This document shows, one piece after another, positions 468 through 20,323 of a DNA stretch of 37,254 bases (within the stretch, counting starts at the first letter, position 1; each line of letters begins with the position of its first letter). The notes beneath the pieces are model-generated. The model did not search any database, had not been told where the DNA came from, and worked only from the letters and a program-made list of their open reading frames with translations. This DNA is from an uncultured Clostridia bacterium (GTDB taxonomy: Bacteria > Bacillota > Clostridia > Christensenellales > CAG-138), in NCBI GenBank assembly GCA_946631895.1, contig CAMPAN010000009.1:1-37254 (forward strand). Direction: 5' to 3'. A program made the translations under genes and the position numbers.

Positions 468-1898
468 TCAGACCGATATGTCTTCGTCGCGTTCCGGCAG
501 CACCTCGTACTGCGTGCGGTACGTCTCCAAAAGCTCTTCGACCTGTTCCGCGCAGCGACCGGTATAGTTCCGGGGCACGAGCAGAGCGGTAAGCTCCTGT
601 TCCGTCATGCCGAACGTCCCGGCGGCGGCGAGCCGTGAAATCAGGTCGCAGGGTTTTCCTGCGCGCATCTCCTTTACGCTTTCCATGGAACATCGGCGGA
701 TAACCTCGTGGAGGACCTGTCGATCCCCGCCCCGTTTGACGGCTTCCATCAGCAGATTCTCCGTTGCGAGGAAGGGCAGATATTCCATTAAAGTCTTTTC
801 CACCATGACTTCGTTGACCTGCAGCCGCGCGGTTACGTTCCGGCTGAGACGCAGAATTGCGTCGGCGCAGAGGAACCCCTCCGGCATGGAGATGCGGCGA
901 TTTGCCGAGTCGTCCAGCGTCCGTTCCAGCCATTGCGTCGATGCGACGGCAGCCGCGTTCGCCGCATCCGCCATAAGATACCTGCCGAGAGAACAGATGC
1001 GTTCCGAACGCATGGGATTACGCTTGTAGGGCATGGCGGACGAACCGATCTGGTCCGTTTCGAAGGGCTCTTCCAGCTGCCGGTCGTGCTGCAGCAGACG
1101 GATATCCGTTGCCATGCGGCAGCAGGTCTGCGCGATGGCGGACAGGACGTTCAGGATACGGCTGTCCAGCTTCCGCGGATAGGTCTGACCGCAGACGTCG
1201 AAACACCGATCAAAGCCGAAAGCCGCCGCCAGACGCCGGTTCAGCTCCTCAACCTTTGCTCCGTCGCCGTCAAACAGATCCAATAGACTCGCCTCCGTTC
1301 CGGTAGCGCCGCGGCAGCCCAAAAAGCGAATGCAGGAAAGCACGAAATCCACCTCCAGGACGTCGGACAGAACGTCCTGAAGCCAGAGAGACGCCCGCTT
1401 TCCGACCGTCACGGGCTGGGCCGGCTGATAATGGGTATAGCCCAGAGTCGGCAGATCGCGATACCGCTCGGCAAAGGCGGCCAGATTGGCGGCAAGCCCC
1501 AAAAGCTCCCGCTTGATATGCCGCAAAGCGTCCCGATACAGGATCAGATCGGCGTTGTCCGTTACATAGCAGCTGGTAGCGCCCAGGTGAATGATGCCTG
1601 CAGCTTCCGGCGCAGCGACGCCATAGGTATAGACGTGCGCCATTACGTCGTGGCGCACTTCCTTTTCCCGCCGTGCCGCCAGCTCGAAGTCGATGTCCTC
1701 CACATGGGCTTCCAGTGCCGCCACCTGCTCCGCTGTGACGGGCAGCCCCAGTTCATGCTCGACGCGTGCCAGCTCGGTCCAAAGCCTGCGCCAGGTTTCG
1801 ATGCGGGTCCTCTGGGAGAACAGGCGCTTGATCTCCTCCGAAGCATATCGGGAGCACAGGGGGGATTCATATGTATCGTACAAAGTCATTACCTCCAT
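468..1898 (-). CDS. purB: Adenylosuccinate lyase
   Basis: 476-aa ORF with lyase-superfamily motifs (HLGATSCYVTDNAD, GSSAMPYKRNPMRSERI); adjacent to purC and purA. Confidence 0.95.
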   Translation of the reverse strand: MEVMTLYDTYESPLCSRYASEEIKRLFSQRTRIETWRRLWTELARVEHELGLPVTAEQVAALEAHVEDIDFELAARREKEVRHDVMAHVYTYGVAAPEAAGIIHLGATSCYVTDNADLILYRDALRHIKRELLGLAANLAAFAERYRDLPTLGYTHYQPAQPVTVGKRASLWLQDVLSDVLEVDFVLSCIRFLGCRGATGTEASLLDLFDGDGAKVEELNRRLAAAFGFDRCFDVCGQTYPRKLDSRILNVLSAIAQTCCRMATDIRLLQHDRQLEEPFETDQIGSSAMPYKRNPMRSERICSLGRYLMADAANAAAVASTQWLERTLDDSANRRISMPEGFLCADAILRLSRNVTARLQVNEVMVEKTLMEYLPFLATENLLMEAVKRGGDRQVLHEVIRRCSMESVKEMRAGKPCDLISRLAAAGTFGMTEQELTALLVPRNYTGRCAEQVEELLETYRTQYEVLPERDEDISV

Positions 1899-1995
1899 AT
1901 CGTTCGTCAGTCGGATCGGCGATCCGCGGCAAATTGTTTGTTCTTCGGCGGATCATACGCCGCGCGCCTCATGGACGCGTCTTTTCGACCGTCCC

Positions 1996-2712
1996 TCAGG
2001 CGTCGTGCTCGCACAGGCGGCGCATGACTTCGGTATAGGCGTCCTCGACATCGCCCAGGTCTCTGCGGAAGCGGTCTTTGTCCAGCTTCTTTCCGGTCTT
2101 GCTGTCCCAAAGGCGGCAGGTATCCGGGCTGATCTCGTCTGCCAGAATGATCGTGCCGTCCGAAAGCCGACCGAATTCCAGCTTGAAGTCCACCAGCGTC
2201 ACGCCGCAGTCCGCCCAGACGGCGCGCAGGACTTCGTTGACGCGCAATGCGTACCGTTTGATCGTCTCGATCTCGTCCTCCCGGGCAAGATGCATCGCCA
2301 TTGCATGCGAAGTGTTGATCAGAGGATCTCCGAGGGCGTCGTTTTTATAGGAAAACTCTACGGTCGGAGCATCGAAAACCACGCCTTCCGGCACGCCGTA
2401 CCGCTTGGAAAAGGAACCGGCGGCGATGTTGCGGACAATCACCTCCAGCGGAACGATCTCGACACGCCGGACAAGCGTTTCCCGCTCCGAAAGCTCTTTC
2501 ACGAGATGGGTCGGGACGCCTTCGCGTTCCAGCCGCTGCATCAATCGGTTGCTCATTTGATTGTTGATGACGCCTTTTCCGCAGATCGTCCCCTTTTTCA
2601 GACCGTTGAACGCCGTTGCATCGTCCTTGTATGCCACGATCAGCAGATCGGGATCGTCCGTTGCATAGACCTTCTTTGCCTTTCCTTCATATAACTGTTC
2701 TTTCTTCTGCAT
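1996..2712 (-). CDS. purC: Phosphoribosylaminoimidazole-succinocarboxamide synthase (canonical SAICAR synthetase)
   Basis: 238-aa [55 protein letters not shown] motifs. Confidence 0.96.
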
Positions 2713-2733
2713 GATAAACCTCCTTGCGGCTTT

Positions 2734-4008
2734 TTAACGACGGATACAGGCGTCCCGCTCCGCACCCACCGAGATATACGCGATCCGACAGCCCACGGCG
2801 TCCTCGATCCGTTCCACATACGCCCGGGCGGGCGCCGGAAGCTCGTCCCATGTGCGCGCCTTGGAGATGTCGCAACACCACCCGTCCATATACTCCAAAA
2901 CGGGCTTTGCGTCCGGAAGCGCAGCGGGGAACGGGAACCGATCGGTCTCTTCTCCGTTCAGTTCATACCGTGCGCAGATCGGAATTTGATCCAGATAGCT
3001 CAGCACGTCCAGCTTCGTCAGCGCCAGCGACGTCGCGCCCTGCATCCGCACGCCGTAGCGGGTGGCGACCAGGTCGATGGGTCCCACGCGGCGGGGACGT
3101 CCGGTCTTTGCGCCGTACTCCGCGCCGGCTTCTCTGAGCGCATCCGCTTCCGCGCCGAACAGCTCGCAGGTGAACGGTCCTTCCCCCACGCAGGTGGAAT
3201 ATGCCTTTACGACGCCGATCACCTCGTCGACCTTGAGCCACGGGGCGCCGGAACCCACGGGAGCGTAAGCGGCGACCGCGTTGGAAGAAGTGGTATAGGG
3301 ATAGATCCCGCTATCCAGATCCCGCAGCGCGCCCAACTGCGCTTCAAACAGGATGCGCTTTCCCTCCGCCTGCGCTTTTTCCAGCTCTGCACCCGTGTCG
3401 CAGAGAAAAGGCTTCATGCGATTTCCGAAGGTTTCGAGCCAATTGAGCAGAGTTTCAAGGGAATACGGTTCCGCGCCGTAGACGCCGGTCAGCGTCAGAT
3501 TCTTCCATTCCAGAAGATCCTTCGCATGTTCAAAAAGATGCTCCGGATAGTTCAGCTCCCCCGTCAGCAGCGTTTTTTTCTGATATTTGTCGGAATAGAA
3601 CGGCGCGATTCCCTGTTTGGTCGAGCCATACTTTTTATCCTTGAGCCGCGCTTCTTCCAGCGCGTCCAGGTCCCGATGCCACGGCAGAAGGAGGGAAGCC
3701 CGCTCGCTGATCTTCAGGTTTTCCGGCGTGATGGAGATGCCTGCCGCACGGAGCGTTTCGATCTCCGTCCACAGACTTTCGAGGTCGAGGGCGACGCCGC
3801 TGCCGAGAACGTTGACGACGCCCGGACGAAAGATGCCCGAAGGCAGCAGATGCAGGGCGAATTTTCCGAATTGGTTGACGACGGTATGACCCGCGTTTCC
3901 TCCGCCCTGATAGCGGACCACATAATCGAATCGTTCGGTCAGAAGATCGACCATACGACCTTTGCCTTCATCACCCCAGTTGATCCCTACGATTGCACAA
4001 TTTGACAT
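2734..4008 (-). CDS. purA: Adenylosuccinate synthetase
   Basis: Start MSNCAIVGINWGDEGKGRMVDLL at 4008; GDEGKGR P-loop, QGGGNAGHTVV, STKQGIAP; the ORF-track start at 4182 is an in-frame extension into the leader. Confidence 0.95.
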   Translation of the reverse strand: MSNCAIVGINWGDEGKGRMVDLLTERFDYVVRYQGGGNAGHTVVNQFGKFALHLLPSGIFRPGVVNVLGSGVALDLESLWTEIETLRAAGISITPENLKISERASLLLPWHRDLDALEEARLKDKKYGSTKQGIAPFYSDKYQKKTLLTGELNYPEHLFEHAKDLLEWKNLTLTGVYGAEPYSLETLLNWLETFGNRMKPFLCDTGAELEKAQAEGKRILFEAQLGALRDLDSGIYPYTTSSNAVAAYAPVGSGAPWLKVDEVIGVVKAYSTCVGEGPFTCELFGAEADALREAGAEYGAKTGRPRRVGPIDLVATRYGVRMQGATSLALTKLDVLSYLDQIPICARYELNGEETDRFPFPAALPDAKPVLEYMDGWCCDISKARTWDELPAPARAYVERIEDAVGCRIAYISVGAERDACIRR

Positions 4009-4200
4009 AAATACATGCTCCTTTCCCGGATTGGCGAAAGTCGAAAACAGAAGGATGCGCATCGCTTTGCGCGCATCGGCGGATTTGTTGTGCAAAGGGC
4101 GCCGCTCTTTTTTTGAATCCTTCATCAGCGCCTGAAGCGCTTTCTGAGACAAGCGGAGTCTCCGAAACCGACCATCCTGCATTCGATCAAAAACATATAT

Positions 4201-4229
4201 ATATTATATCAATGATGCGACTTTTGCAA
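4201..4229 (-). promoter_or_regulatory. Putative sigma-A-type promoter for purA
   Basis: On the minus strand TTGCAA (4224-4229), 17 nt, TAATAT (4201-4206), or TATAAT (4203-4208) with a 15-nt spacer; AT-rich island in GC-rich DNA. Confidence 0.45.
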
Positions 4230-4414
4230 CCGGCGTTTTTGATAAACCGAGAGCAAGGTAAAAAAACAGGAACAGTTGTTCAAGCGGAAATGCTTTCCGG
4301 CCGGTTTTCGGCGTTCAAACGCTCGGCGATGCCTTCGGGAGGCGCCGTTTCGGAAACCGCGGCTTCGTTTTTCGCTTACAAACCGCCGTATTGCAGGGCT
4401 TTTTCCGGAATCCG

Positions 4415-5842
4415 TCAGTCCGGCTGCTGCTCGCCGCCGTCGGTGTCGCTGCGCACGATGTTGACGACCCAGCGATCGCTCTTAACCAGGATAAAGCCGA
4501 TCACGCACTTGATGAGCTCCAGCGAGCAGCACACGATATAGAGCGGCAGGATCGGAAGCGCCGTAAACCGGCTTAAAACGAACGCAACGGGGATGCAGAG
4601 CGCCCAGACGAAGCAGCTGTCGAACAGCATCGTGATCCGCGTCTGCCCGCCGGAGCGCAGCGTGAAATAGCAGGCGTGGGTGAACGCGTTGAACGGCATC
4701 ATGCACGCGGAGACCCAGAGGAAACGCGTCGCAAGCGTCTTTACCTCGTCGCCCGTGTTGTAAAGCCGCGGGATGAACGGCGCGGCGACGGCGAGCGCGG
4801 CGCCGAAGAACAGACAGGTGCACACCGACAGCGCAATGATCTTTTTGTCCGTGTCCTTCGCCTCCTCCAGCTTGTTCGCGCCGAGCAGGTTGCCGACGAT
4901 GATGCCGATCGAGGAGCCGATGGACATGAAGACGATGTTAAAGAGGTTCGATACCGTGCTCGAAATGTTCAGCGCTGCGACGGCGGAGATGCCGCGCATC
5001 GAATAGCACTGCATCATGGTCGTCATGCCGAGCGACCAGAACGCTTCGTTCAAAAGCAGCGGCGTGCCCTTCAGAACGATCTGCTTTGCAAGGGTGCCGG
5101 GCACATACAGCGAGCGATAGACGCCTTTGAAGAACGGGAAGCGCTCCGTATGAGTATGCGCGTAGGTCACGATGATCGCAAGCTCCGCAAAGCGCGAGAT
5201 GACCGTTGCGATCGCCGCGCCGAGTACGCCGAGCGCCGGAAAGCCGAGCTTGCCGAAGATCAGCAGCCAGTTGAACAGCAGATTGATGAGCACGGCGGAT
5301 CCGCTGGCGACCATCGGCACGAAGGTCTCACCCGTTTCGCGGAGCGAAAAGGCGTAGCACATCGAAAGCGCGGCGGGAACGAGCCCGATCAGCATGATCA
5401 GTACGTATTTGCTGCCGTATGCGAGCGTTGCGGCAAGGTCGCCCTCCGCGCCGCTTTCGTGCAGAAACAGCGTGAGCAGCGGCTTATGGAAAAAGCCGAG
5501 GACGACCAGCGCGATGATCGAGATACCGGCGCAGATCCATAGCTTAAACCGGAGCACGTGCCGCACGCCGTCCGTATCCTTTTTCCCGGCGAACTGCGCG
5601 CCGAAGATGCTCGCCCCGGAGAGCCCGCCGAAGACCGTCAGATTGAATACGAAGATCAGCTGGTTTGCGATCGCGACGCCGCTCATCTGCTCGGTTCCGA
5701 TCCTGCCGACCATCAGATTGTCCAGTACGTTGACGAACTGGCTGACGCCGTTCTGGATCACGACGGGAATGACGATCGCAAGGACCGCCTGATAAAACGC
5801 TTTATTCCCGATGTATTTTGAAAGAAAAGACCGCTGTTCCAT
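4415..5842 (-). CDS. MATE family efflux transporter
   Basis: Multi-TM protein starting MEQRSFLSKYIGNKAFYQAVLAIVIPVVIQNGVSQFVNVLDNLMVGRIGTEQMSGVAIANQ; typical MatE N-terminal sequence. Confidence 0.93.
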   Translation of the reverse strand: MEQRSFLSKYIGNKAFYQAVLAIVIPVVIQNGVSQFVNVLDNLMVGRIGTEQMSGVAIANQLIFVFNLTVFGGLSGASIFGAQFAGKKDTDGVRHVLRFKLWICAGISIIALVVLGFFHKPLLTLFLHESGAEGDLAATLAYGSKYVLIMLIGLVPAALSMCYAFSLRETGETFVPMVASGSAVLINLLFNWLLIFGKLGFPALGVLGAAIATVISRFAELAIIVTYAHTHTERFPFFKGVYRSLYVPGTLAKQIVLKGTPLLLNEAFWSLGMTTMMQCYSMRGISAVAALNISSTVSNLFNIVFMSIGSSIGIIVGNLLGANKLEEAKDTDKKIIALSVCTCLFFGAALAVAAPFIPRLYNTGDEVKTLATRFLWVSACMMPFNAFTHACYFTLRSGGQTRITMLFDSCFVWALCIPVAFVLSRFTALPILPLYIVCCSLELIKCVIGFILVKSDRWVVNIVRSDTDGGEQQPD

Positions 5843-6055
5843 TGTCCGCCGTTCTCCGCAGGGCGTTCTTCCGCCCGTCCGTCTCACAGTATACCATGAA
5901 CGTCTGCAAAAGAAAAGCCGGAAAGCACGCGATCCGACCGGCTGTCCCTGCGAAACAAAAAACTTGATCTATATCATCCGGATGAAGGTCGTTTCTGCAG
6001 AAAATTCTGCTGTCATTGAAGCGTGCGCTTCGGACTTTGTGTTGTCTTTCTGCGG

Positions 6056-6192: not shown

Positions 6193-6445
6193 TTTGATAC
6201 CTCCTTCAGTGGATTCTGTGTACTTCGCGCGGGGGCTGCTTTCGCCGGACGGAAAGATGCGTTCCGAGCAGGATCGGAAGGTACAATCCTGCATACTCTG
6301 TCAGGTCCCTCCGCCGCTGCCATAGGATGACAGAATGATCCCGATATGGCAGAAGCAGGGTTGAAACAGATCTTTCTGCTGTGAGAAAGCACGTTTTCGG
6401 TCAAGTATTTTCCATAGAAGCGACGTCTGAAAATACCGGCATATA

Positions 6446-6474
6446 TTGATTATGGGCCGGTTTTCCGGTATAAT
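6446..6474 (+). promoter_or_regulatory. Putative sigma-A promoter for the histidine kinase/response regulator operon
   Basis: TTGATT (6446-6451), 17-nt spacer, TATAAT (6469-6474), 65 nt upstream of the ATG at 6539. Confidence 0.7.
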
Positions 6475-6538
6475 ACTCATTAAATCGACCGGATCGGAAC
6501 ACAGAAAACGGATCATAACAGAAGGGAGGCGCAGGCAT

Positions 6539-7813
6539 ATGACCGACAATTACAGCACGCTTGCTGCGATCTCTCCCCTGCTGCTGCTTTTGATCGGACT
6601 GTCGATCACGGTGATGATCGATCCGTATATCCGGCGGGAGCATCGGCGCGTCATGCTGATCATTGCCGCTCTGCTTGTGACGCTGGTTGCGCAGAATGTC
6701 CTGGATTTTTGGGTAGAGCAGGACAGCACGCAGCGCGTGGCAAGGACGATCCTCGGCATTTACGGGTATTCCGTTCGTCCGGCTGTCCTTGTGCTGTTTC
6801 TGTATCTGTTCGGCACAAAGCGCAGGATCTGGCCTTTCTGGGCACTGGTCGGCGTCAATGCGCTGATCTATTCTACGGCGCTGTTTTCCGGCGTCAGCTT
6901 TTTCATTGACGAAACCAACCACTTTCTTCGCGGACCGCTGGGCTACAGCTGTCATGTTGTCAGCGGTATCCTGCTGTTCTGCCTGCTTTGGATCACGATC
7001 CGCGCGTTTCGCAAGATCAAAAGAGCGGAAATGTGGATTCCGCTTTTGAACGCGCTGCTCATCATTGCCTGCGTTCTGATGGACTCCGTATTCGCAACAA
7101 ACCTCCGTTATCCGGTCACGTTTCTGACCGTCGGCATTGTGATCAGCACGGTGTTCTATTATATCTGGCTGCATCTGCAGTTCGTCCGCGCGCATGAGCG
7201 CGATCTGATGGCGGCGCAGCGCATCCAAATCATGATGACGCAGATCCAGCCGCACTTTCTGTTCAATGCGCTCAACACCATCCGCGCGCTGTACGCGAAA
7301 GACCCGCCCATGGGGGATCGCATTCTGGAGGATTTCAGCACATATCTCCGGCAGAATCTGGAAACGCTGAACCGGACCGAGCTGATCCCGATCAAAAAAG
7401 AGCTGGAACACACGCGGCTGTATGCGGAGATCGAAGCGCTGCGGTTTCCGAATATCCGTATGGAGTATCGGATTGAAGACGACGCGTTTTCGATCCCCGC
7501 GCTGACGATCCAACCGCTGGTGGAGAACGCGATCCGACACGGCGTCCGAAGCCGCAAGGACGGATCGGTCATTGTGTCCACCGCGCGCGAAGCGGGCGGA
7601 CACCGGATCACGATCGAGGACAACGGCACGGGCTTCGACCCGACCGAAGAGCGATCCGACGGGGAAACCCATATCGGAATTCAGAACGTAAAAGCACGCA
7701 TCGAGCAGACGTGCGGCGGAACGATGGTCTTAAGAAGCGAGATCGGAAAGGGCACCGGCGTCACGCTGTTCATCCCGGATGCTTCGGAGAAAGGAAAGGA
7801 GCGAAAGCTGTGA
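6539..7813 (+). CDS. Sensor histidine kinase, multi-TM N-terminus (LytS/YehU-type His_kinase plus HATPase_c)
   Basis: MTDNYSTLAA start with RBS GGGAGG; several TM helices; QIQPHFLFNALNTIRAL H-box; VENAIRHGV N-box; IEDNGTGF G-box. Confidence 0.92.
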   Translation: MTDNYSTLAAISPLLLLLIGLSITVMIDPYIRREHRRVMLIIAALLVTLVAQNVLDFWVEQDSTQRVARTILGIYGYSVRPAVLVLFLYLFGTKRRIWPFWALVGVNALIYSTALFSGVSFFIDETNHFLRGPLGYSCHVVSGILLFCLLWITIRAFRKIKRAEMWIPLLNALLIIACVLMDSVFATNLRYPVTFLTVGIVISTVFYYIWLHLQFVRAHERDLMAAQRIQIMMTQIQPHFLFNALNTIRALYAKDPPMGDRILEDFSTYLRQNLETLNRTELIPIKKELEHTRLYAEIEALRFPNIRMEYRIEDDAFSIPALTIQPLVENAIRHGVRSRKDGSVIVSTAREAGGHRITIEDNGTGFDPTEERSDGETHIGIQNVKARIEQTCGGTMVLRSEIGKGTGVTLFIPDASEKGKERKL

Positions 7814-8610
7814 AAGCGATCTGTGTCGACGACGAGCCGCTGGCGGTCGAATATACGGTATGTCAATGCGAAAGCCTGCCGGAGATCGACGAGATCCGGG
7901 GGTTTACCGATGCGCAGTCTGCGCTGGACTGGCTTTCGGAGCACGCGGTTGACCTTGCGCTTCTCGATATCAATATGCCGGAGATCGACGGCATTGCGCT
8001 TGCCGCGCGGATCAAGGCGCTGCATCCGCAAACGGCGATTCTGTTTCTGACCGCATACAAAGAATATGCCTTCGACGCGTATACGGTGCACCCGGCGGGG
8101 TATTTATTAAAGCCGGTTTCTCTGGAAAAGCTCGCGGCGGAGGTACGGTATCTGTACGAAGAGAAAAGGTCCGAACCGTCCGAACGGATCCGGATCAAGA
8201 CCTTCGGATCCTTCGATGTGTTTGTGGAGGACCGATTCATGCATTTCAAGCTGGCGAAAAGCAAGGAAATCCTGGCGTATCTGGTGGACAGGCAGGGCTC
8301 CGGGGTTACAAGGGCGGAGCTTTTTGCCGCAGTTTGGGAGGATCGCCCGTACGACCGCGGCATGCAGAAGCAGCTTGACACGTACATCCGTTCGCTGCGG
8401 GATACCCTGCGCGAATACGGCGCGGAGGAGATCATGGAGATGCGCAAGGGGATCCTTCGCGTCAGACCGGAGACGTTCATCTGCGACGCATACCGGTTCC
8501 ATGCGGGCGACAGCGAGGCGATCAACGCGTACCGCGGGGAATACATGAGCGCCTATTCCTGGGCGAGCATGACGGAAAGCATCCTGTCCGGAAAAGCAAA
8601 TATAACCTGA
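7810..8610 (+). CDS. Response regulator: receiver domain plus SARP-like winged helix and short BTAD-like tail
   Basis: GTG start overlapping the kinase stop (GTGA); AICVDDEPLAVEY, ALLDINMPEIDG, LFLTAYKEYA; C-terminal FGSFDVFVEDRFMHFKLAKSKEILAYLVDRQG...CDAYRFHAGDSEAINAYRGEYMSAYSWAS. Confidence 0.9.
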   Translation: MKAICVDDEPLAVEYTVCQCESLPEIDEIRGFTDAQSALDWLSEHAVDLALLDINMPEIDGIALAARIKALHPQTAILFLTAYKEYAFDAYTVHPAGYLLKPVSLEKLAAEVRYLYEEKRSEPSERIRIKTFGSFDVFVEDRFMHFKLAKSKEILAYLVDRQGSGVTRAELFAAVWEDRPYDRGMQKQLDTYIRSLRDTLREYGAEEIMEMRKGILRVRPETFICDAYRFHAGDSEAINAYRGEYMSAYSWASMTESILSGKANIT

Positions 8611-8633
8611 TCCCGAATAAATACAGAAACGCA

Positions 8634-8672
8634 AGCCGCTTTTTTCAGTTATTTTGGAAAAGCGGCTATTTT
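8634..8672 (+). terminator. Intrinsic terminator after the two-component operon
   Basis: AGCCGCTTTT (from 8634) / AAAAGCGGCT (8658-8667) 10-bp stem followed by ATTTTCTTT. Confidence 0.7.
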
Positions 8673-8673
8673 C

Positions 8674-8706
8674 TTTGGACATCCTTTGGACATGCTCTGC
8701 TATACT
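8674..8706 (+). promoter_or_regulatory. Putative activator-dependent promoter with 11-bp-period direct repeats
   Basis: TTTGGACAT at 8674 and again at 8685 (period 11), followed by TATACT (8701-8706); no good -35 hexamer at normal spacing. Confidence 0.6.
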
Positions 8707-8784
8707 GAAATGTTGAAAAATATATTCTTCGCAGCCCGATTGACGGCTGCAGGGAAACAATTCCGTTGACAGGAGGAAAAAACA

Positions 8785-9822
8785 ATGTTCTCATTCAAAG
8801 GACCCGGATTGAAAATCTTCGCGGCGATCCTTGCCGTGATCGTGCTCGGCGTCGGCGTTTATTTCACGTTCTTCCGGTCGAAGGGCTATGAAAAGACCGA
8901 AGCGACCATCGTTTCCATCGAAAACGACCCGGATTACATCCCCGATCCGGACACCGAAAACGACGCCGGACGGATCGTGACCGTGAAGTACACGGTCGAC
9001 GGCAAGGAATATACGGCGCAGCTCGATTCCGACAGCCCGTCTTACGAGGTGGGGAAGACGGTCCATATTCAGTATGATCCGCAGAACCCCGCAAAGATCA
9101 CGTCCTCGAAGGGCTTCGGCATCTATTTCATGATCGCGGGCGCGGTCATCCTGCTTCTGGTGGTCGGACTGACGGTCAAAAAGAAGCTCGACGTCAAGAA
9201 GCTCAAGGAAACGCAGGGCGAGACCGTCTATGCGCCGTCCGAGCAGGGCGAGGAGCGCGAGCTGTACTTCTTGACCGACCTCGGCACGCCGAAGTACGGT
9301 CATCGCATCGAGGACAAGGAACGCAACGTCCTTTATGAAGCGAAGATGACGAAGTTCACGCTCGCGGGTCCGTTCGGCTTCGACTTCATCGACTATGAGC
9401 ACGGCACGACCAAGGCGCATCTTGTCGGACATCAGGAGGAGACCGACTGGAACTCGTTCCTGCTCGACAATCACTACACCTTCTCGCTGGACGGCGAGGA
9501 CATCTGGAAGCATCTCAAAAAGAACGGCGTCAAGGTGGAATCCCGCTTTGCCGAGGGCAAGGTCCTCTTCCCTTCCTACACGGTTTCGAGAGACGGCGCG
9601 GAGATCGGCTATATCGAGGCTTCGAGCCAGTACGTCCACGAGGAAGACGCCGAGGAACACGCAGTCGCGAACAAGGTCCCGGTCCCGGGGTTCTATCGCA
9701 TCTTCACGAGCGAAAAGAACCTCGACCTGCTGTTTGTCGTCGCGCTCGCGTTCGCTCGCAGCGGCGCAACGGACGACAAGGGCGGATCCCGCAAGATCCT
9801 CTTCAACGCAATGAAGGGCTGA
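8785..9822 (+). CDS. Membrane protein with DUF3592-like N-terminal region and a beta-rich C-terminal domain
   Basis: 345 aa; TM helix, ATIVSIENDPDYIPD...VTVKYTVDGKEYTAQLD..YEVGKTVHIQYDPQNPAKI is DUF3592-like; second TM; RBS GGAGG. Confidence 0.75.
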   Translation: MFSFKGPGLKIFAAILAVIVLGVGVYFTFFRSKGYEKTEATIVSIENDPDYIPDPDTENDAGRIVTVKYTVDGKEYTAQLDSDSPSYEVGKTVHIQYDPQNPAKITSSKGFGIYFMIAGAVILLLVVGLTVKKKLDVKKLKETQGETVYAPSEQGEERELYFLTDLGTPKYGHRIEDKERNVLYEAKMTKFTLAGPFGFDFIDYEHGTTKAHLVGHQEETDWNSFLLDNHYTFSLDGEDIWKHLKKNGVKVESRFAEGKVLFPSYTVSRDGAEIGYIEASSQYVHEEDAEEHAVANKVPVPGFYRIFTSEKNLDLLFVVALAFARSGATDDKGGSRKILFNAMKG

Positions 9823-9882: not shown

Positions 9883-10848
9883 ATGGACAACAAGCAAATC
9901 TACAAAAAGACGCTCGGATTCTCCCTGCGCCGCCTGTTCTGGGACGTCATCTCTCTGGTGCTGTTCCTTGCGCTCTGTACGCTCGGCTTTATGCTGGGTG
10001 AAAAGCTGATCGAAAACGGCGGCGTCATCGGTCTCGTGATCGGTGCGATCATCGGTCTCGTGGCGGTGATTCTGATCTCGAGATTCGTGTCCTACATGCT
10101 GAAAGCGGGACAGATCGCCATGATGACCCGCGGCGTCACCGAGGGCGAGCTGCCCGACAACGTGATCGCCGAGGGCAAGAAGGTCGTGAAAGAGCGCTTC
10201 CTCACCGTTGCCGCGTACTTTGCGGTGACCAACGTCATCAAGGGTATCTTCAACCAGATCGGCAGAGGCATCACGAAGGTCGGCGAAAGCATCGGCGGCG
10301 ATACCGGCGGCGCGATCGGCGGCGCGGTGAGCTCCGTCATGCAGACGATCGTCAATTATCTTTGCGACTGCTGCCTCGGCTGGGTCTTCTACCGCAAGGA
10401 CGTCAAGGCGGCGAAGGCGACCTGCGAAGGCGCGGTGCTGTTCTTCAAGCACGGCAAGACGTTCGCAAAGAACATGGGCCGCGTGTTCGGCATGGGACTT
10501 GTGTCCCTGCTTCTCATCGGCGGTGTGTTCACGGGCGTTTTCTATGCGATCCTGCACGCGATCGGCGATCTGCCGCTCTATACGGACGTTGCGGCATTCT
10601 TTGCGGAGAACGAAAGCCGGCTTGCCCAGATCCTCAGCAATCCCGCGACGCTTCCCATCGCGTTCTCGATCCTCGGCGGCGTCATCGTGTGGAGCATCCT
10701 CCACTCCGTGTTCATTCGTCCGTTCGTGCTCACCGGCGTGCTCCGGAACTATCTGGAATCCGGCATGAACGACATCCCCTCGGAATCGAGCTTTGCGATG
10801 CTGGATTCGAAGTCCGATAAGTTCCGCAAGCTTCATCAGGAGATGTAA
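9883..10848 (+). CDS. Multi-pass membrane protein of unknown function
   Basis: 321 aa, RBS AGGAGG, multiple TM helices, Gly-rich segment IGGDTGGAIGGAVSSV; good plus-strand coding context. Confidence 0.8.
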   Translation: MDNKQIYKKTLGFSLRRLFWDVISLVLFLALCTLGFMLGEKLIENGGVIGLVIGAIIGLVAVILISRFVSYMLKAGQIAMMTRGVTEGELPDNVIAEGKKVVKERFLTVAAYFAVTNVIKGIFNQIGRGITKVGESIGGDTGGAIGGAVSSVMQTIVNYLCDCCLGWVFYRKDVKAAKATCEGAVLFFKHGKTFAKNMGRVFGMGLVSLLLIGGVFTGVFYAILHAIGDLPLYTDVAAFFAENESRLAQILSNPATLPIAFSILGGVIVWSILHSVFIRPFVLTGVLRNYLESGMNDIPSESSFAMLDSKSDKFRKLHQEM

Positions 10849-10874: not shown

Positions 10875-11294
10875 ATGAATAAAAAAACCGTTGCCGCAAT
10901 CGTACTCTCTGTCGTTGCACTGTGCCTGTCGATCGCGGGACTGATCGTTGCGCTGCTGCCGAAGCAGGCGGCGGGCGACGTGCAGTACGTCATGTATCTC
11001 GGCACGAACGATAAGGATACGAACGAGCCGGTGTTTGCGCCGGACGAAGCCAAAACGAAAGCGGAGGAGATCCTGCTCAAGCATGTCGGCGGCTGGACGA
11101 TCCAGGAGGCGAACGGCGGCTGGGCGGACGGAGACATGCTCTATCGAGAATACACGATCGTGATCTATCTGAGCGACACAAGCGCGGACGCCGTCCACGC
11201 CGCTGCGGATGAATTGATCGCGGCGTTTCATCAGAGCTCCGTTCTGATCCAGAAAAACGTGACCGCGACCGAGTTCTATTACGGCAGACCGTAA
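10875..11294 (+). CDS. Small N-terminally anchored or secreted protein of unknown function
   Basis: 139 aa; N-terminal hydrophobic helix (TVAAIVLSVVALCLSIAGLIVALL) and soluble C-terminus; RBS AAGGAG. Confidence 0.8.
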   Translation: MNKKTVAAIVLSVVALCLSIAGLIVALLPKQAAGDVQYVMYLGTNDKDTNEPVFAPDEAKTKAEEILLKHVGGWTIQEANGGWADGDMLYREYTIVIYLSDTSADAVHAAADELIAAFHQSSVLIQKNVTATEFYYGRP

Positions 11295-11349
11295 GCGGTC
11301 CGACCGGTATACCGGTTCCCGCGGGACGGCGCTTCTCCGTCTCGCGGGA
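11287..11349. repeat. Three consecutive inverted repeats or palindromes
   Basis: GACCG-taag-CGGTC (11287-11300); perfect palindrome ACCGGTATACCGGT (11303-11316); TCCCGCGGGACGG-cgcttct-CCGTCTCGCGGGA (11317-11349, one G-T pair). Confidence 0.8.
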
Positions 11350-11728
11350 GCGCACGGATTGTGTACGGATCCATGGGACCATGGCGTCTGACACAGGGGT
11401 GAATGCGCATGAAGAAAACAAGAAAGGTTGATATCGTCATCGTCTGCGCTGCCTGAACCGGCCGGAGGATCCACCTCCGGGAAAATCTTTGTCGACGGCA
11501 ATCCGCTCTCCGCAACGATCGCCCGAAGGCTTGCGAAACGGACCGATTTTACATTTGACGGCGAAAACAGGGTACTTGCTGTTTTCTGACCGTATTCCGC
11601 ACGGACCGGCGCGATTCCGGGACGGCATTCCGCTGCGGAAAAACGCGTTTCGATCCGGAAGGACAGAATGATGCAGAATAATCGTCCGAAAAGGACGTCG
11701 AAAAGTGATTCTGAAAGGAGATACAAAT

Positions 11729-12025
11729 ATGAATATCGAACAAAAGAAAGACGGAAAAGCACTGGATCTCGCGCTCGAGGGCCGTTTGGACACCGTGACC
11801 GCGCCGGAGCTCGAAGCGGTGCTGAAAGATGCGCTTGCGGGCGTGGAGGAGCTGACGTTTGATTTTGAAAAGCTCGATTACATCTCTTCCGCAGGGCTTC
11901 GCGTGCTGCTTGCGGCACAGAAGACCATGAACCGGCAGGGGACCATGAAGGTGATCCATGCCAACGAGATGATTCGGGAGATTTTTGACGTCACCGGCTT
12001 TTCGGACATCCTGACCGTCGAATGA
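11729..12025 (+). CDS. STAS-domain anti-sigma factor antagonist (RsbV/SpoIIAA-like)
   Basis: 98 aa: MNIEQKKDGKALDLALEGRLDTVTAPELEAVL...LDYISSAGLRVLLAAQKTM; conserved SSAGLR phosphoacceptor motif; RBS GAAAGGAG. Confidence 0.93.
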   Translation: MNIEQKKDGKALDLALEGRLDTVTAPELEAVLKDALAGVEELTFDFEKLDYISSAGLRVLLAAQKTMNRQGTMKVIHANEMIREIFDVTGFSDILTVE

Positions 12026-12069
12026 TCTCCTGAAAGAAAAGCTATAAATAAAATGAGGAGAAACGAACA

Positions 12070-12765
12070 ATGAAAAAAGTATTGTCAGTTTTACTGATCG
12101 CTCTGCTGATTCTCAGCGCGGCTGCGTGTACCCCAAATGCCGAACCTGCGGCGCCGGATGCCGAACCCGCGGCGCAGGAATCCCCCGCCGCCGACCCGGC
12201 GCAGTGGAAGATCCTGGGCGACATCTGGGCGTTTGAATCCGACGGCTACGGAAGCGAGGAAAACCGGTATGTCCGGATCTTCAAGGCGGATGGCGTCTAC
12301 TATCGCGCGGAGACCGATATTCCGCAGGATGTGGCGGAAAAGCTGGACGCCATCGACTTTTTTGACGAGACAAGGGAAACGCAGGAAAAAGAGCTGATGA
12401 AGGATCTGCCCATTCAGACGATCTGCAATCTTTCCGAGGTGCTGCTTTCCCAAAGCGAACTCGATGCGCTGATCGGCAAGACCGGTCAGGAGCTTTTGGA
12501 TATGGGCTTCGTGCCGCAGGGCAGCTTCAGCACGCTGGAGAAGGTTTTCTGTGCAAGTCTGGATAAGGGTCCGTTCGAATATGAAATCGAGTTTGAGGAG
12601 ATTGCGGAAGTCGACGACAATCCCAACGTGGCGGCGGTCATCCGGCCGCTGACGGTGAAGAGCGCAGCTTTTTCCGGCCTTTCCCAGTACTGCCTGGAAA
12701 TGGAGTTCGACATCAACGGCGGCAGATCTCTGGCGGATTATGAAGCGGAGTTCGCCGGGGACTGA
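12070..12765 (+). CDS. Putative lipoprotein of unknown function
   Basis: Signal peptide with lipobox (LLILSAAAC) followed by an Ala/Pro/Glu-rich linker; RBS GAGGAG. Confidence 0.85.
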   Translation: MKKVLSVLLIALLILSAAACTPNAEPAAPDAEPAAQESPAADPAQWKILGDIWAFESDGYGSEENRYVRIFKADGVYYRAETDIPQDVAEKLDAIDFFDETRETQEKELMKDLPIQTICNLSEVLLSQSELDALIGKTGQELLDMGFVPQGSFSTLEKVFCASLDKGPFEYEIEFEEIAEVDDNPNVAAVIRPLTVKSAAFSGLSQYCLEMEFDINGGRSLADYEAEFAGD

Positions 12766-12877
12766 TACGGGCCGGGCGCTTGCAGTCTTCGGGATTACCC
12801 TTTTCGGATCGTGATCCGCTTTCCGTCGGATCGCGCAAAACAGACACGACCATCAGTTCATAAAGGAGACCGGAACC

Positions 12878-14098
12878 ATGGCAGAAGAAAAACGGTTTAC
12901 AAAAGCGACATGGCAGATCATGGAACAGCTTCTCGAGGTGGATAACCTCGACGACGCGCTCTCCGGCAGTCTGGAAATCATTGTCAACACGCTGAACAGC
13001 GAAGCCGGCGCGATCTGGCTTCTGGATCAGAAAACGGATCGGCTGACCCCGATGTTCCACATCGGACCGGCTGATATCTCCAACATCACGGTGGAAAACG
13101 GACTCGGCATCGAGGGCGTCGTCACCAAGACCGGCAAGTCCGTGATCGTGGAGGACGCGGCGAACGATTCGCGCTTCGAGGGCTCCGTGTTCGACGACAA
13201 CGGGCTTATTACCAAGACGATGATCTGCGTGCCGCTCAACAACCTGCACGACGTGATCGGCTGCGTGCAGATCGTCAACAAGAAGGACGGCAGTCTCTAC
13301 GACGCCGAGGAGCTGAAGCTGTGCGAGCGCATGGCGTCTCTCGCGGCGATCACGATCGACGAAAAGGGACTGATCGTCGACCTCGGTGAGAAAAAGGAGA
13401 TTCTTGCAACGCTCCGCAACGTCACAAAGGAGTTCCCCTCCGGCGACGGCGTGCTGCAGGTGCTGAAAGGAATCAACCTTGACGTCTACAAAAACGAATT
13501 TGTGGTCGTGCTCGGCGAGTCCGGCTGCGGAAAATCGACGATGATGAACATCGTCGGCGGCATGGACTTTCTGACCGACGGCGAGCTTACGGTCGAAGGC
13601 AGAGATTTCTCGCATCCCTCCGACGCCGAGCTCACGCAGTACCGCCGCGAATACATCGGCTTCATCTTCCAGTCCTATAACCTGATGCCGAATCTGACTG
13701 CGCTCGAGAACGTGCAGTTTATCGCGGAGCTTGTGAAAGAGCCCATGGACGCGGCGGACGCGATTGCAAAGGTCGGGTTAGCGGAGCGCGCAAACAACTA
13801 TCCCGGGCAGATGTCCGGCGGTCAGCAGCAGCGCGTGTCCATTGCGCGCGCGATCGTGAAAAAGCCGAAGCTGATCCTTGCCGACGAGCCGACGGCGGCG
13901 CTCGACTACACGACGAGCATTGAGGTCCTTTCGGTCGTCGAGGATATCGTACGCAAGCAGGGCGCGACGGTCATGATGGTCACGCACAACCCCGAGATCG
14001 CCAAGATGGCGGACCGCGTGGTCAAAGTGCGCAACGGAAAGATCGCAAGCATCAAAAAGAACCTGCACCCCGTCCACGCAGAAGAACTGGTTTGGTGA
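12878..14098 (+). CDS. GAF domain-ABC transporter ATPase fusion
   Basis: N-terminal GAF-like region (about aa 10-165: IWLLDQKTDRLTPMFHI...GIEGVVTKTGKSVIVEDAANDSRF...MICVPLNN..VIGCVQIVNKKDG) followed by a complete ABC ATPase (GESGCGKST, MSGGQQQRVSIARA, LILADEPT). Confidence 0.93.
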   Translation: MAEEKRFTKATWQIMEQLLEVDNLDDALSGSLEIIVNTLNSEAGAIWLLDQKTDRLTPMFHIGPADISNITVENGLGIEGVVTKTGKSVIVEDAANDSRFEGSVFDDNGLITKTMICVPLNNLHDVIGCVQIVNKKDGSLYDAEELKLCERMASLAAITIDEKGLIVDLGEKKEILATLRNVTKEFPSGDGVLQVLKGINLDVYKNEFVVVLGESGCGKSTMMNIVGGMDFLTDGELTVEGRDFSHPSDAELTQYRREYIGFIFQSYNLMPNLTALENVQFIAELVKEPMDAADAIAKVGLAERANNYPGQMSGGQQQRVSIARAIVKKPKLILADEPTAALDYTTSIEVLSVVEDIVRKQGATVMMVTHNPEIAKMADRVVKVRNGKIASIKKNLHPVHAEELVW

Positions 14099-14104
14099 TT
14101 TGTC

Positions 14105-16759
14105 TTGAAGAAAACACAGCTGAAAGACGCATTACGCAACATATGGAAACAAAAGGTTTCCTTTCTGTCGATCATCGTGATCGCGCTTCTGGGCGTGACC
14201 GCCTTTTTGGGCATCGGATATTCGGCGTCGGCATTGCGGAAAAACGCATCGGCGGCGTACAACCGGCAGAACTATCGTGATATCGAGGTCATTTCCACGC
14301 GTCTTCTGACGGCGGAGGACCTCGACTGCATCCGCGCGCTTGACGGCGTGAAGGACGTCGAACCGGTCTGGCAGACCGCCGCGAACGCCTATATCGGCAG
14401 CGAAAAGCAGGTCATCAACATCATCACCGCGACGGAGCGGATCAATCTTGTATCGACGATCGAGGGGCGCATGCCCAAGGATGCTTCCGAGTGCGCGATC
14501 GAGCAAACCGTCGCCGAGGAAGCCGGATGGAAGATCGGCGACGAGATCGAATGGGCGGAAATGACCGATGTCACGGGGCAGTTCTTCCTCGGCGGGGATC
14601 CGTTCACGATCGTCGGCATCGTCGCGCATCCCGATCACGCAAGCAAAACCGTGCCGGAGACGCCGTATATGATCGTCAGCGCGGATCGGTTCGATCGGGA
14701 GGCGATGGAGAACTGCTGCATGAAGGCGGAGATCGTCATTGAGAAAGCAGCGGACGTCAACCGGTTTTCCGAGGAGTACGACGGGACCGTCGCGGCGGTT
14801 ATGCAAAAGGTCGAGCAGATCTCCGGGGAACGGATCGCGATCCGGGACGCGCAGATCAAAGAGCAGGCGCTTGCGCTGATCGAACAGGCGGAAACGACGC
14901 TTTCGGACAATAGAGAGCAGCTGACAACGGGAACCCAGACAAAGGACACCCTGCTCGGCATCATCGTGCAGGCGGAGCAGATCGTGGGCGGCATAGACGG
15001 GATGGACACCTCAATCGATTCTCTGCGGGAACTGAGACAGAAGATCGAAGAGAAGAGCTCCGATTTGGACGACACCGAAGCGATGCTTGCGCAGACGGAA
15101 ACGATGCTTCGGGAACAGCGCGATCAGCTGGACAACATGGAACCCGGCTACTGGTTCATCTTCGACGGACACGGCAGCGCGAGCTTTGTGCAGCTGATCA
15201 TCGGCAGCGGGAACCTCAAGAGCCTGGAAATGACCTTTTCGCTGCTGTTCGTGCTGGTCGGCGCGCTCGTGATCTATGCCACGATCAGCAAGATGATCGA
15301 CGAGCAGCGCACGCTGGTCGGAACGACCAAGGCGCTCGGCTTCTTCAACCGGGAGATCTTTGCAAAATACCTGCTGTTCGGTCTGTCCGCAACGGTGCTC
15401 GGCACCCTGCTCGGCATCCTGCTTGCGCGGTTTGTCTTTGAACCGTTCATTCTGAAAGGGTACGGCGCGTACTACACCTATGATACGACGGAACCGACGG
15501 TGACGGTCGGACCGACGCTGATCGTGCTGCTTGCGGGGATCGTCCTCGCCGTCGGCGCGATCACGCTTGCCTGCTACCGGCTGATCCGCACCCCTGCGAT
15601 CCGGCTGATGCAGCAGGCGGTCCCCAAGGGCAAAAAGACGAGCGCAAAAGGCGGAAAGCGGCTGTTGTCGCTGTATTCGCGACTGATCCTACTGAATATG
15701 CGCACCGACCTCAAACGCGTGATCGTGACGATCGTCAGCGCGGCGGGCTGCTGCGCGCTGATCGTGATCGGCTTTACGCTGAAGGCAGCGGTAAACGGCG
15801 CGGTCAAAAACCAGTATTCTTCCGTCGTGCATTACGACGCGAAGGTGCAGTATGAATACGGCGAGGAGATCGAAGCGGAGCTCATAAGATCCGGCGCGGA
15901 ATGCGTACCGCTGTACGACGTCTACATCACCTATCGGATCACGGACAATCAGGTGGGCGAACTGCTGTGCGGCGATATCGAAGCCATCGAATCCATGTAC
16001 CGTTTGAACGATTGGAAAACCGGAAGTCCGATTAAACCGACCGACGAGGGCATTCTGATCCAGCGGCGTCTGGCGGAGATCGAAGGTCTCGGCATCGGCA
16101 GCGAATTCCTGATCACCGTAGGCGGCGTGAAAACGGCGAAGGTCCGTGTGGCGGGCATCTTCGAAAACTACATCGGCCGCTCCATGGTGATGAGCACCGG
16201 GTATTACGCGTCGCTGTTCGGCGCGGCGCCCACACCCAATTCCTACCTGATCCGCCTGAACGACGCGGACGAGGAGGCGCTGCATACGCGACTCAAAGCG
16301 ATTTCGGGCTTTACCAAATACACGCCGGCGTCGGCGGACCGGGCAATGTTCGATTCCGCGACCTCGGTCGTCAACAGCATCGTCGTGCTGTTCATCGTCC
16401 TGGCGGCGATCATGGCAGGCGTGGTGCTGACAAATCTCATGAATATCTACATCATGCAGAAGAAGCGCGAGCTCGTCGTCATGCGCATCAACGGCTTCAC
16501 GGTCAGGGAGGTCATCGGCTACTGTACGCGTGAAACGATCCTGACGACGATTGCGGGCATCGTGCTGGGCATTGCGCTCGGCTCCGGGATCGCCTATCGG
16601 ATCGTGCGTTCGATGGAACAGGCGTTTATCCGGTTCGACCGCGGCGTCAGCCCGCTCGCATGGCTGTACGGCGCGCTGATCACGGTGCTGTTCACGGTCA
16701 TCATCAATGCGATCGTTCTTCGGAAGGTGAAGCATCTGAAGCTGACGGACGCTGTATAA
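14105..16759 (+). CDS. FtsX-family (MacB-like) ABC permease, paralogue 1
   Basis: 884 aa, TTG start; KDALRNIWKQKVSFLSIIVIALLGVTAFLGIGYSA; two FtsX-like TM regions, short coiled coil; directly downstream of the ABC ATPase. Confidence 0.9.
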   Translation: MKKTQLKDALRNIWKQKVSFLSIIVIALLGVTAFLGIGYSASALRKNASAAYNRQNYRDIEVISTRLLTAEDLDCIRALDGVKDVEPVWQTAANAYIGSEKQVINIITATERINLVSTIEGRMPKDASECAIEQTVAEEAGWKIGDEIEWAEMTDVTGQFFLGGDPFTIVGIVAHPDHASKTVPETPYMIVSADRFDREAMENCCMKAEIVIEKAADVNRFSEEYDGTVAAVMQKVEQISGERIAIRDAQIKEQALALIEQAETTLSDNREQLTTGTQTKDTLLGIIVQAEQIVGGIDGMDTSIDSLRELRQKIEEKSSDLDDTEAMLAQTETMLREQRDQLDNMEPGYWFIFDGHGSASFVQLIIGSGNLKSLEMTFSLLFVLVGALVIYATISKMIDEQRTLVGTTKALGFFNREIFAKYLLFGLSATVLGTLLGILLARFVFEPFILKGYGAYYTYDTTEPTVTVGPTLIVLLAGIVLAVGAITLACYRLIRTPAIRLMQQAVPKGKKTSAKGGKRLLSLYSRLILLNMRTDLKRVIVTIVSAAGCCALIVIGFTLKAAVNGAVKNQYSSVVHYDAKVQYEYGEEIEAELIRSGAECVPLYDVYITYRITDNQVGELLCGDIEAIESMYRLNDWKTGSPIKPTDEGILIQRRLAEIEGLGIGSEFLITVGGVKTAKVRVAGIFENYIGRSMVMSTGYYASLFGAAPTPNSYLIRLNDADEEALHTRLKAISGFTKYTPASADRAMFDSATSVVNSIVVLFIVLAAIMAGVVLTNLMNIYIMQKKRELVVMRINGFTVREVIGYCTRETILTTIAGIVLGIALGSGIAYRIVRSMEQAFIRFDRGVSPLAWLYGALITVLFTVIINAIVLRKVKHLKLTDAV

Positions 16760-16792
16760 CTCAAAGGAACGGCGTTCGCGGAGGGAAAGCAT

Positions 16793-19700
16793 TTGAAGCG
16801 AACACAGATTAAAGACGCATTGCGGAACATCCGAAAACTGCAGATCTCGTTCTGGTCGATCGTCGTGATCGCCGCGCTCGGCGTGACGATCTTTCTCGGC
16901 GTCGACTATGCCGCGGCCGCGCTCCGAAAAAACGCAACCGCCTATTATCGGGATACAGGCTTCCGCGACGTCGAGATCGTTTCCACCATGCTGCTTTCCG
17001 CAGAGGATATGGACGTTATCAAAAACACGGAGGGCGTGACGGACGTTGAGGGCGTCTATATGACCGCCGCCAAGGCGGTGTCAAACGACACCCGCATGGA
17101 CGCGTATGTGATCTCCGTGACGGAGCGGATCAACATCCCGTCCGTATACGAGGGACGTCTGCCGGAAAACGTCGGCGAATGCGCCGTTGAGCGGCGGCTG
17201 ATGGATCAGATGGGATGGAAGGTCGGCGATACGATCGCGGTCACGAGCGCTGACGGCAAGACGCCGCAGTATCTCAAAGCCGATTCGTTCGTTATCTGCA
17301 GCGCGATCCTGCATCCGGACCATGCCTGCAACAGCATCACGGAAACGCTTTACATCGTCGTGACGCCCGAGGCGTTCGATGCGGAAGCGCTGAACGGCTG
17401 TTTTATGAAGGCAGAGATCATGGCGGACCGTCCGATCGACATCAACCGTTACGGCGCCGAATACCGGACGGCGGCGGCTGCAGTGCGCGAACGGATGGAA
17501 ACGACCGCCGAAACGCGCACGCCGCTTCGCGAGGCGTCGGTAAAGGAGCAGATCGACGAGAACCGACAGAAACTGGACGACGCCGAAGCGGAGCTTGAGA
17601 ACGGACGCGCGGAACTCGACGACGGCTGGAACCGGCTTGCGGAGGGCGAACGGGACTACGAGGAAGGCAAACAGAAGCTCGAGGACGGACGGAAGCAGCT
17701 GGACGATACCAAGGAACAGCTTGCGGAAGCCGAGCAGAAACTGAAGGACGGACGCGCGGAGCTGGATGCCGCAAAGGCGGAGCTCGAAGCAGGCAAGGCG
17801 CAGCTTGATGATGCGGAAAAGAAGCTCAATTCGGCAAAGCGGAAGCTCGTTTCCGGCTGGGACACGATCGAAGACGCCAAGACGCAGATCCGAAACAAGC
17901 TGCATGCCGGGCTTGATAACATCATCAGCGAGGATTCCTCCCAATGGATCCACTGGGCAGCGCCGATGAAGGCGAACCCGAACAGCTCGAAGGTTTCCGC
18001 GAGCGACTTCCGGATCACGGAAAGCTATACGATCAATCTCGGCGCGTCGCTGTCCGATAAGATCAATCAGCTCATGAGCACGGTGCAGATCCCGGATCGC
18101 GTGCTACGGATCGCGTTCGAAAAACTCGGAGGCGAGGGCGAATACGATCCCGATACTGCGCGCAATCTTCTTGCCTCCCGTCTTGCATCGCTTGCGGGCG
18201 GGTATCAGTCGCAGTACGACGCGCTCGCCGACGGATGCACCAAATGGGACAAGGGGCACAAGACCTATCTTTCGGGACTTTGGCAGTATCGCGAAGGTCT
18301 TGCAAAGTACGAAGAAGCGCTCAAGCTGTATCAGGATGGCGAAGCGCACTACGCCGAGGGGCTTGCACAGTATGAGGACGGTCTTTCGCAGTACAACGAC
18401 GGAGAAACGCAATATGCGCAGGGATTGATCGATCTTGAAAACGGCCGCAGGGCGCTTGACGACGCCCGCGCAAAGCTTGAGGATGCCGAACGGCAATACG
18501 CGGACGGACTCAAACAGTACAACGAAGGCAGGGAAGCGCTCCAAACGGCGCAGAAGCGCATTGAAGCGCTCGGTCCGTGCAAGTGGATCGTGACCGACGG
18601 TTTCGGAAACGTCGGCTTTGTGCAGCTCGGGACCGCTGCAAATAATCTGAAGAGCATGGAGATGACCTTTGCGCTCCTGTTCGTTCTGGTCGGCGCGCTC
18701 GTCATCTACGCAACCGTCAGCAAGATGGTCGACGAACAGCGCAGACAGATCGGGACGACAAAAGCGCTCGGCTTTTTCAACCGTGAGATCTTCGCAAAAT
18801 ACCTGTTGTTCGGGATCTCGGCGACACTGCTCGGATGCGTGATCGGTCTGCTGATCGCGCGATTCGGGATCCAGGGCTTTATCACGAACGGCTATAATCT
18901 TTATTTTGATTACAATCTTAAGAAGCCTGCAATGGTTGCGCTTCCGACGGTGATCGTGTTTTTGGCGGGTATCCTTTTGGCGTTCTTCTCCATTTGGTTT
19001 GCATGCGCGAAGCTGCTACGCACACCGGCGATCAGGCTGATGCAGCAGGCGGTTCCGAAGGGCAGGAACAAGGCGGCGTCCGGCAAAAAATCCGCGTTGT
19101 CGCTCTATTCGCGTCTGATCCTTTTGAATATCCGGACGGATTTCCGCCGCGTGCTCGTCACGGTCGTGAGCGTCGCGGGCTGCTGCGCGCTGGTCGTCAT
19201 CGGCATTACGATCCGAAACGCGGTCAGCAATTCGCTGGAGCTGCAGCTCAACAAGATCATCCGTTACGACGGCATGGTGTCGCTTGATCCCGAAACGAAC
19301 GCCGATGCGCCGGACGCCGTCGCGCGGATCCTCAAGGATGCGGGCGCAAAGGGCTGTCCCGTTCTCAAAAAGAACGTCACCGTGCACATCACGGATCTCG
19401 ACATGCTGGAGCTGTACGTCGGAGATCCTGCGGAGGTCGGCGAAATGAACCTGCTTGCCGACGCCAAAACCGACGAGCCGATCCCGCCGACCGATGAAGG
19501 CATTCTGGTCTCGAGACGGTTTTCCGAGAACTATCACATCAAGGTCGGCGATCCGGTTGAGATCTCTCTGAACGGCACGGAGACGGTGCAAACAACCGTC
19601 GCAGGCATCTTCAACACTTATATCGGCAGAGAGACGTATATGAGCGACAACTGCTTCCGGAATCTGTTCGGACGCGATCCGGAAACGAACGCGTTCCTCG

Positions 19701-20245: not shown

Positions 20246-20274
20246 TTGACACAAAAACCAGGATTGCTTATTAT
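20246..20274 (+). promoter_or_regulatory. Strong sigma-A-type promoter for the giant exoprotein gene
   Basis: TTGACA (20246-20251), exactly 17 nt, TATTAT (20269-20274), 50 nt before the ATG at 20324. Confidence 0.75.
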
Positions 20275-20323
20275 CGACACAGATAAACATGCGGTTCGGA
20301 TCCCAGACTCAGGAGGAACGGAA

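Follow-up and report, generated by a model that had tools for sequence, protein, structure and literature searches.

A predicted operator with SARP-like geometry beside an OmpR-type response regulator in uncultured Clostridia

Pho boxes consist of 11-bp direct repeats that replace the -35 element and lie about 10 bp from the -10. The SARPs, exemplified by AfsR and the afs box, use 11-bp repeats whose 3' repeat lies 8 bp from the -10, in a box that is centred at -29.5 and overlaps a poor -35, and the bound AfsR/SARP dimer provides a substitute docking place for sigma region 4 (PMC10936776). SARPs have an N-terminal winged helix followed by BTAD and no receiver, whereas in the OmpR/PhoB family a receiver is joined to a Trans_reg_C winged helix. 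In the COG3947 'SAPR' regulators (REC-wHTH-BTAD) a receiver precedes a SARP-like winged helix; a search of the searchable literature for an operator of COG3947-type regulators, or for the repeat motif described here, found none.

We analysed a 37,254-nt stretch of DNA (the window) from an uncultured Clostridia bacterium. The exact 10-mer CTTTGGACAT is present there in two copies (8673-8682 and 8684-8693) with a period of 11 bp, one turn of the helix, the letters from 8673 reading CTTTGGACATC-CTTTGGACATG, and the repeat cores TTTGGACA lie at 8674-8681 and 8685-8692. The predicted operator (8673-8695, + strand) is composed of two head-to-tail 11-bp units, TTTGGACATCC and TTTGGACATGC, within a promoter ordered TTTTC-TTTGGACATCC-TTTGGACATGC-TCTGC-TATACT. 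The end of the second core is separated by 8 bp from the -10 (TATACT, 8701-8706), and a TG at 8698-8699 makes this an extended -10 (TGC-TATACT, 8698-8706, + strand) without a -35 at normal spacing; the operator is centred about 28-29 bp before the predicted transcription start. A sigma-70 scan of 6300-8900 scored no -35 at this promoter, and the sole promoter it reported on this strand, upstream of the kinase gene, was the ordinary sigma-70-like TTGATT-17-TATAAT (6446-6474, + strand) of the histidine kinase/response regulator (HK/RR) operon, which lacks the repeat. The HK/RR terminator (8633-8672, + strand), a hairpin of -18.2 kcal/mol (z = -4.4) followed by ATTTTCTTT, lies directly upstream, its T-run abutting the operator. 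A first-pass annotation had already pointed to an 11-bp-period direct repeat right after this terminator, ending shortly before a TATACT -10 that has no good -35, and each of these observations was borne out.

The contact between the T-run and the first unit could suggest that the repeat is part of the terminator, or a chance occurrence, with no regulatory role. Only about 0.0003 matches to the repeat pattern are expected by chance in the whole 1.73-Mb genome, however, and relatives keep the site away from the regulator's terminator, at divergent promoters (L064, L081 and L086); conservation refutes both a chance repeat and a terminator artefact, and we give this explanation practically no credence. 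The pattern did not occur in 100 dinucleotide-shuffled windows, and the genome scan proposed in the first-pass annotation returned the window site as the only match at up to 2 mismatches in the assembly (63% complete). A weight matrix built on 15 sites from other genomes, with the window site left out, scored that site at 60.9 vs -3.7 for the second-best position in the window.

The candidate cognate response regulator (7810-8610, + strand; 266 aa) is composed of a receiver (Response_reg, PF00072, E 4e-22), a C-terminal winged helix (Trans_reg_C, PF00486, E 4e-9) and a C-terminal tail of about 40 residues. Receiver residues D6, D7, D52 and K100 are invariant across 25 homologues, which fits a phosphorylatable receiver. 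Pfam gave no match to BTAD (PF03704) even at E <= 1. The DNA-binding profile showed weak and about equal matches to DrrB (E 0.002) and EmbR (E 0.003), while a fold search with the full regulator model returned ordinary response regulators only, the best structural matches being PrrA, RpaA and DrrB (TM-score ~0.40-0.50 over the whole two-domain chain). The partner sensor histidine kinase (6539-7813, + strand) is a multi-TM protein with His_kinase (PF06580) and HATPase domains, and its gene overlaps the regulator gene by 4 bp (GTGA).

By the domains tested, with a receiver followed by a Trans_reg_C winged helix as in the OmpR/PhoB type, the regulator is an OmpR-type response regulator. The first-pass label of SARP-type suits the operator: SARPs bind direct repeats with a spacing of 11 or 22 bp, a period of 11 bp is found in the window and at 15 further sites, and, as at the afs box, the 3' repeat lies 8 bp from the -10, the -35 is weak and the centre is near -29.5. 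It fails for the protein, in which the SARP order of an OmpR-type winged helix and then BTAD was not found and the winged helix is instead C-terminal to a receiver. Classification of the regulator as a SARP was rejected on these grounds and, because BTAD was undetected, we describe it as SARP-like at the promoter but outside the SARP class. The words also differ from those of SARPs, and the -10 is here extended and AT-rich. Pho-box promoters are a close second analogy after the SARP geometry, though the distance to the -10 is 8 bp here vs about 10 bp in the pho box; the locus further differs from OmpR/PhoB systems in that the partner kinase is of the His_kinase (LytS/YehU-like) rather than the HisKA type and in the family-specific C-terminal tail, INAYRGEYMSAYSWA. 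Residual EmbR similarity past the winged helix recalls the COG3947 regulators, but at 266 aa the window regulator contains no recognisable BTAD.

Conservation was assessed in a family sample of 103 genomes, with a regulator of >=70% identity taken as a close orthologue (11 genomes). The repeat (<=1 mismatch) was found in 11/11 close-orthologue genomes vs 6/92 others (Fisher p = 6e-11), usually just downstream of the regulator gene. This orthologue-conservation result supports, from comparative genomics, the proposal of the first-pass annotation that the repeats are the operator of the adjacent regulator, and the comparison of orthologous loci that it had suggested found the whole promoter geometry conserved: both units, the spacer, the 8-bp gap, the TG (T in 13/15, G in 14/15) and the -10 are retained across 15 aligned sites from other genomes, where no -35-like element is conserved. 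A stem equivalent to the terminator is visible at most of these 15 sites. Some other matches look like chance: at G074 a hairpin instead of a -10 follows, and those in G066, G098, G099 and G041:C12 have no -10 at the right distance.

Rearranged loci separate the operator from the regulator gene. In G076 the HK/RR genes are found beyond the FtsX genes, and 17 kb separate them from the operator, which is still upstream of the DUF3592 gene; in G057:C16 and G077:C2 the operator is intact beside a frame-broken regulator remnant, and in G070:C91 it is intact with a shorter regulator trace. Since the operator stays with DUF3592 or beside a decayed regulator, it tracks the targets, as expected of a trans-acting site. 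Operators are also intact beside decayed C-terminal regulator remnants in L065 (1659-1944), L066 (8756-9040) and L068 (6176-6297), loci that probably arose by duplication of target modules whose own regulator was lost.

Paralogous regulators (50-59% identical) are accompanied by a sister word, GTTGGACATTT, that stands in front of genes of the same types; these repeats number 1-4 per locus, often at divergent promoters, and also precede kinase or regulator genes. A composite pattern of either word, an 8-bp gap and a -10 occurred 44 times in 26/103 family genomes, vs 0 for a reversed-pattern control, and was present in 24/25 genomes with a regulator of >=50% identity vs 2/78 without (4e-20). Beyond the family, it was absent from all 391 genomes sampled from the class (0/391), and the exact TTGGACA word was likewise not found outside the family in the class-wide sample. 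The 2 exceptions, G070 and G071, have composite sites without a detected regulator and would be compatible with the repeat belonging to another DNA-binding protein to which the regulator is merely a neighbour, as would the fact that binding of the repeat by the regulator is a prediction from sequence. Yet G070 retains a regulator trace, co-occurrence of regulator and repeat across the 103 genomes is near-perfect, the word changes with the regulator subfamily, and G079 and G042, which hold both A- and B-type regulators, have each type beside its own word; we consider another protein a very improbable owner of the site. The adjacent regulator is the preferred one.

The first predicted target encodes a DUF3592 membrane protein (8785-9822, + strand), and a DUF3592 gene also follows the site in G057, G070, G076 and G077. 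The second and third probable targets are a membrane protein without a Pfam family (9883-10848, + strand) and a DUF3574 protein (10875-11294, + strand). A possible further part of the regulon (11705-20209, + strand) comprises a STAS gene, a lipoprotein-like gene at 12070, a GAF-fused ABC ATPase and two large FtsX permeases. Because a 410-bp gap (11295-11704) lies between these and the first three target genes, we treat use of the 8701 promoter by the STAS/ABC genes in the window as a possibility only. In relatives the STAS/GAF-ABC/FtsX genes have an operator copy of their own: in G042 three operators flank the locus, one of them upstream of the GAF-ABC/FtsX genes, and in G084 the operator precedes STAS-GAF-ABC. 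The placing of these genes in the regulon by the first-pass annotation thus agrees with sites directly upstream in relatives, while the weight-matrix search of the window located no second site upstream of STAS, GAF-ABC or the kinase. Across 43 sites with a called downstream frame, most precede the regulator itself or a gene whose product starts with a signal or membrane segment, and the family's sites point to a putative envelope/export regulon.

The GAF-ABC ATPase (12878-14098) carries an N-terminal GAF domain fused to the ATPase and adjoins the STAS protein; it is 87-97% identical in relatives with regulators at about 53-75%, is among the most conserved proteins of the cluster, and apparently represents a cytosolic sensor built into a MacB/LolD-like exporter. 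The tandem FtsX permeases (14105-20209; 884 and 1138 aa) have a mutual identity of 41-48%, the second with a coiled-coil insertion. A 2366-aa protein encoded at 20246-27346 gives weak Lipase_3, CHB_HEX_C_1 and MBG matches; in the relative L082 a GTTGGACATTT operator stands immediately in front of the gene for a 2253-aa exported protein, so the regulon may include giant exported proteins. On the minus strand, ordinary genes for adenylosuccinate lyase, adenylosuccinate synthetase and a MATE transporter precede the locus (468-5887).

Taken from sequence, the repeat is very likely an operator of the class-II-like, sigma-adaptation kind, through which the adjacent LytS-type HK/REC-wHTH regulator (7810-8610) would activate envelope/export genes. 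The kinase would respond to an envelope signal and phosphorylate the regulator, and the geometry suggests that two regulator winged helices would bind head-to-tail, one per 11-bp unit, on the same face of the DNA. Since the site takes over the position of the absent -35, and the -10 is of the extended type, the bound dimer probably docks sigma region 4, offering it an alternative dock and recruiting RNA polymerase as with AfsR. The promoter would then drive the DUF3592-9883-DUF3574 membrane genes and perhaps also the STAS/GAF-ABC/FtsX export genes. We infer activation, like the dependence on phosphorylation, and activation rather than repression is read solely from the position of the site. 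The same regulator might instead act there as a repressor, with phosphorylation releasing or tightening binding, given that the operator occupies promoter DNA between the -35 region and the -10, where a bound protein can block polymerase; this we judge unlikely, as there is no -35 for basal activity, the -10 is extended, and the centring near -29 is as in the AfsR activator complex.

A word-independent scan showed that the word changes and the geometry stays. Among 61 divergent regulators, about 29-45% identical to the window regulator, a blind scan for 7-mers of any sequence that recur with a period of 8-15 ahead of a TATAAT-like hexamer gave a single strong peak at period 11 and gap 7-12, with 13-25 matches per cell at gaps 8-11 vs 0-3 in most others. 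When the register was set by the window site, repeats near the regulator numbered 65 at period 11 vs 4-10 at other periods, a comparison that takes in the A and B loci. Period-11 repeats were present in 13/40 non-redundant divergent loci vs 0-2 for nine other periods. In 80 later loci from named genomes, a set that mixes distant relatives with some close ones bearing the A and B words, identity of >=10/11 was found in 15 vs 0-2 at the nine other periods, and 11/11 identity in 8 vs 0. A clear nearby repeat was absent in about two thirds of loci (27/40 and 56/80), where the targets are perhaps elsewhere, the words degenerate or the spacing different.

New words include CGTACGGTTCT, GTGGCACTTTT and GTCACGGTTCT, and TTTGCGGTTTC in Clostridiales bacterium 1_7_47_FAA; CGTACGGTTYT and GATGTGCTTTR are also among the words predicted. 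In Clostridioides difficile HC132 (L204 6853-6889), a GATGTGCTTTA repeat is positioned shortly before TATATT. On its upstream side is a kinase/regulator pair, whose kinase frame ends early (485 aa), and downstream of it follows a gene with GGDEF-like sequence. One subfamily (L159, L161, L163, L165, L167, L169, L170 and L172) has the recognition helix ENTGYRRTIKELTDTL or one near it and the word CGTACGG, and L163, L165 and L170 carry, downstream of the regulator, two successive operators at a distance of about 136 bp. Over 48 non-redundant pairs, the word is variable at positions 1-7 and T-rich at positions 9-11; neither the -10 nor its extension is constant, and TG is present in 24/48 pairs. 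Words tend to be more alike where the DNA-binding domains are more alike (Mantel r = 0.40, p = 0.0002), though regulators were associated with words mostly by neighbourhood, so that shared ancestry inflates the statistic and a recognition code is supported but unproven. We think it likely that the whole clostridial REC-wHTH family, to about 30% identity and including C. difficile, keeps to a fixed promoter geometry, in which an 11-bp direct repeat has a unit starting about 27 bp ahead of the -10 and a -35 is not needed, and that each subfamily reads its own word, about 7 bases long with a T-rich step after it.

The analysis assigns a predicted operator to the regulators of a widespread, apparently uncharacterised two-component family of uncultured gut and rumen Clostridia, and the geometry of Streptomyces antibiotic activators is now seen with BTAD-less response regulators from a different phylum. 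Since relatives share the layout with different words, their targets should be readable from sequence. Word/recognition-helix pairs can be gathered in large numbers (48 in this analysis), and the family could therefore show how the helix sets the DNA word. If the fixed geometry is true, the operators and regulons of hundreds of uncharacterised two-component systems would become readable, and a recognition-helix code would be derivable.
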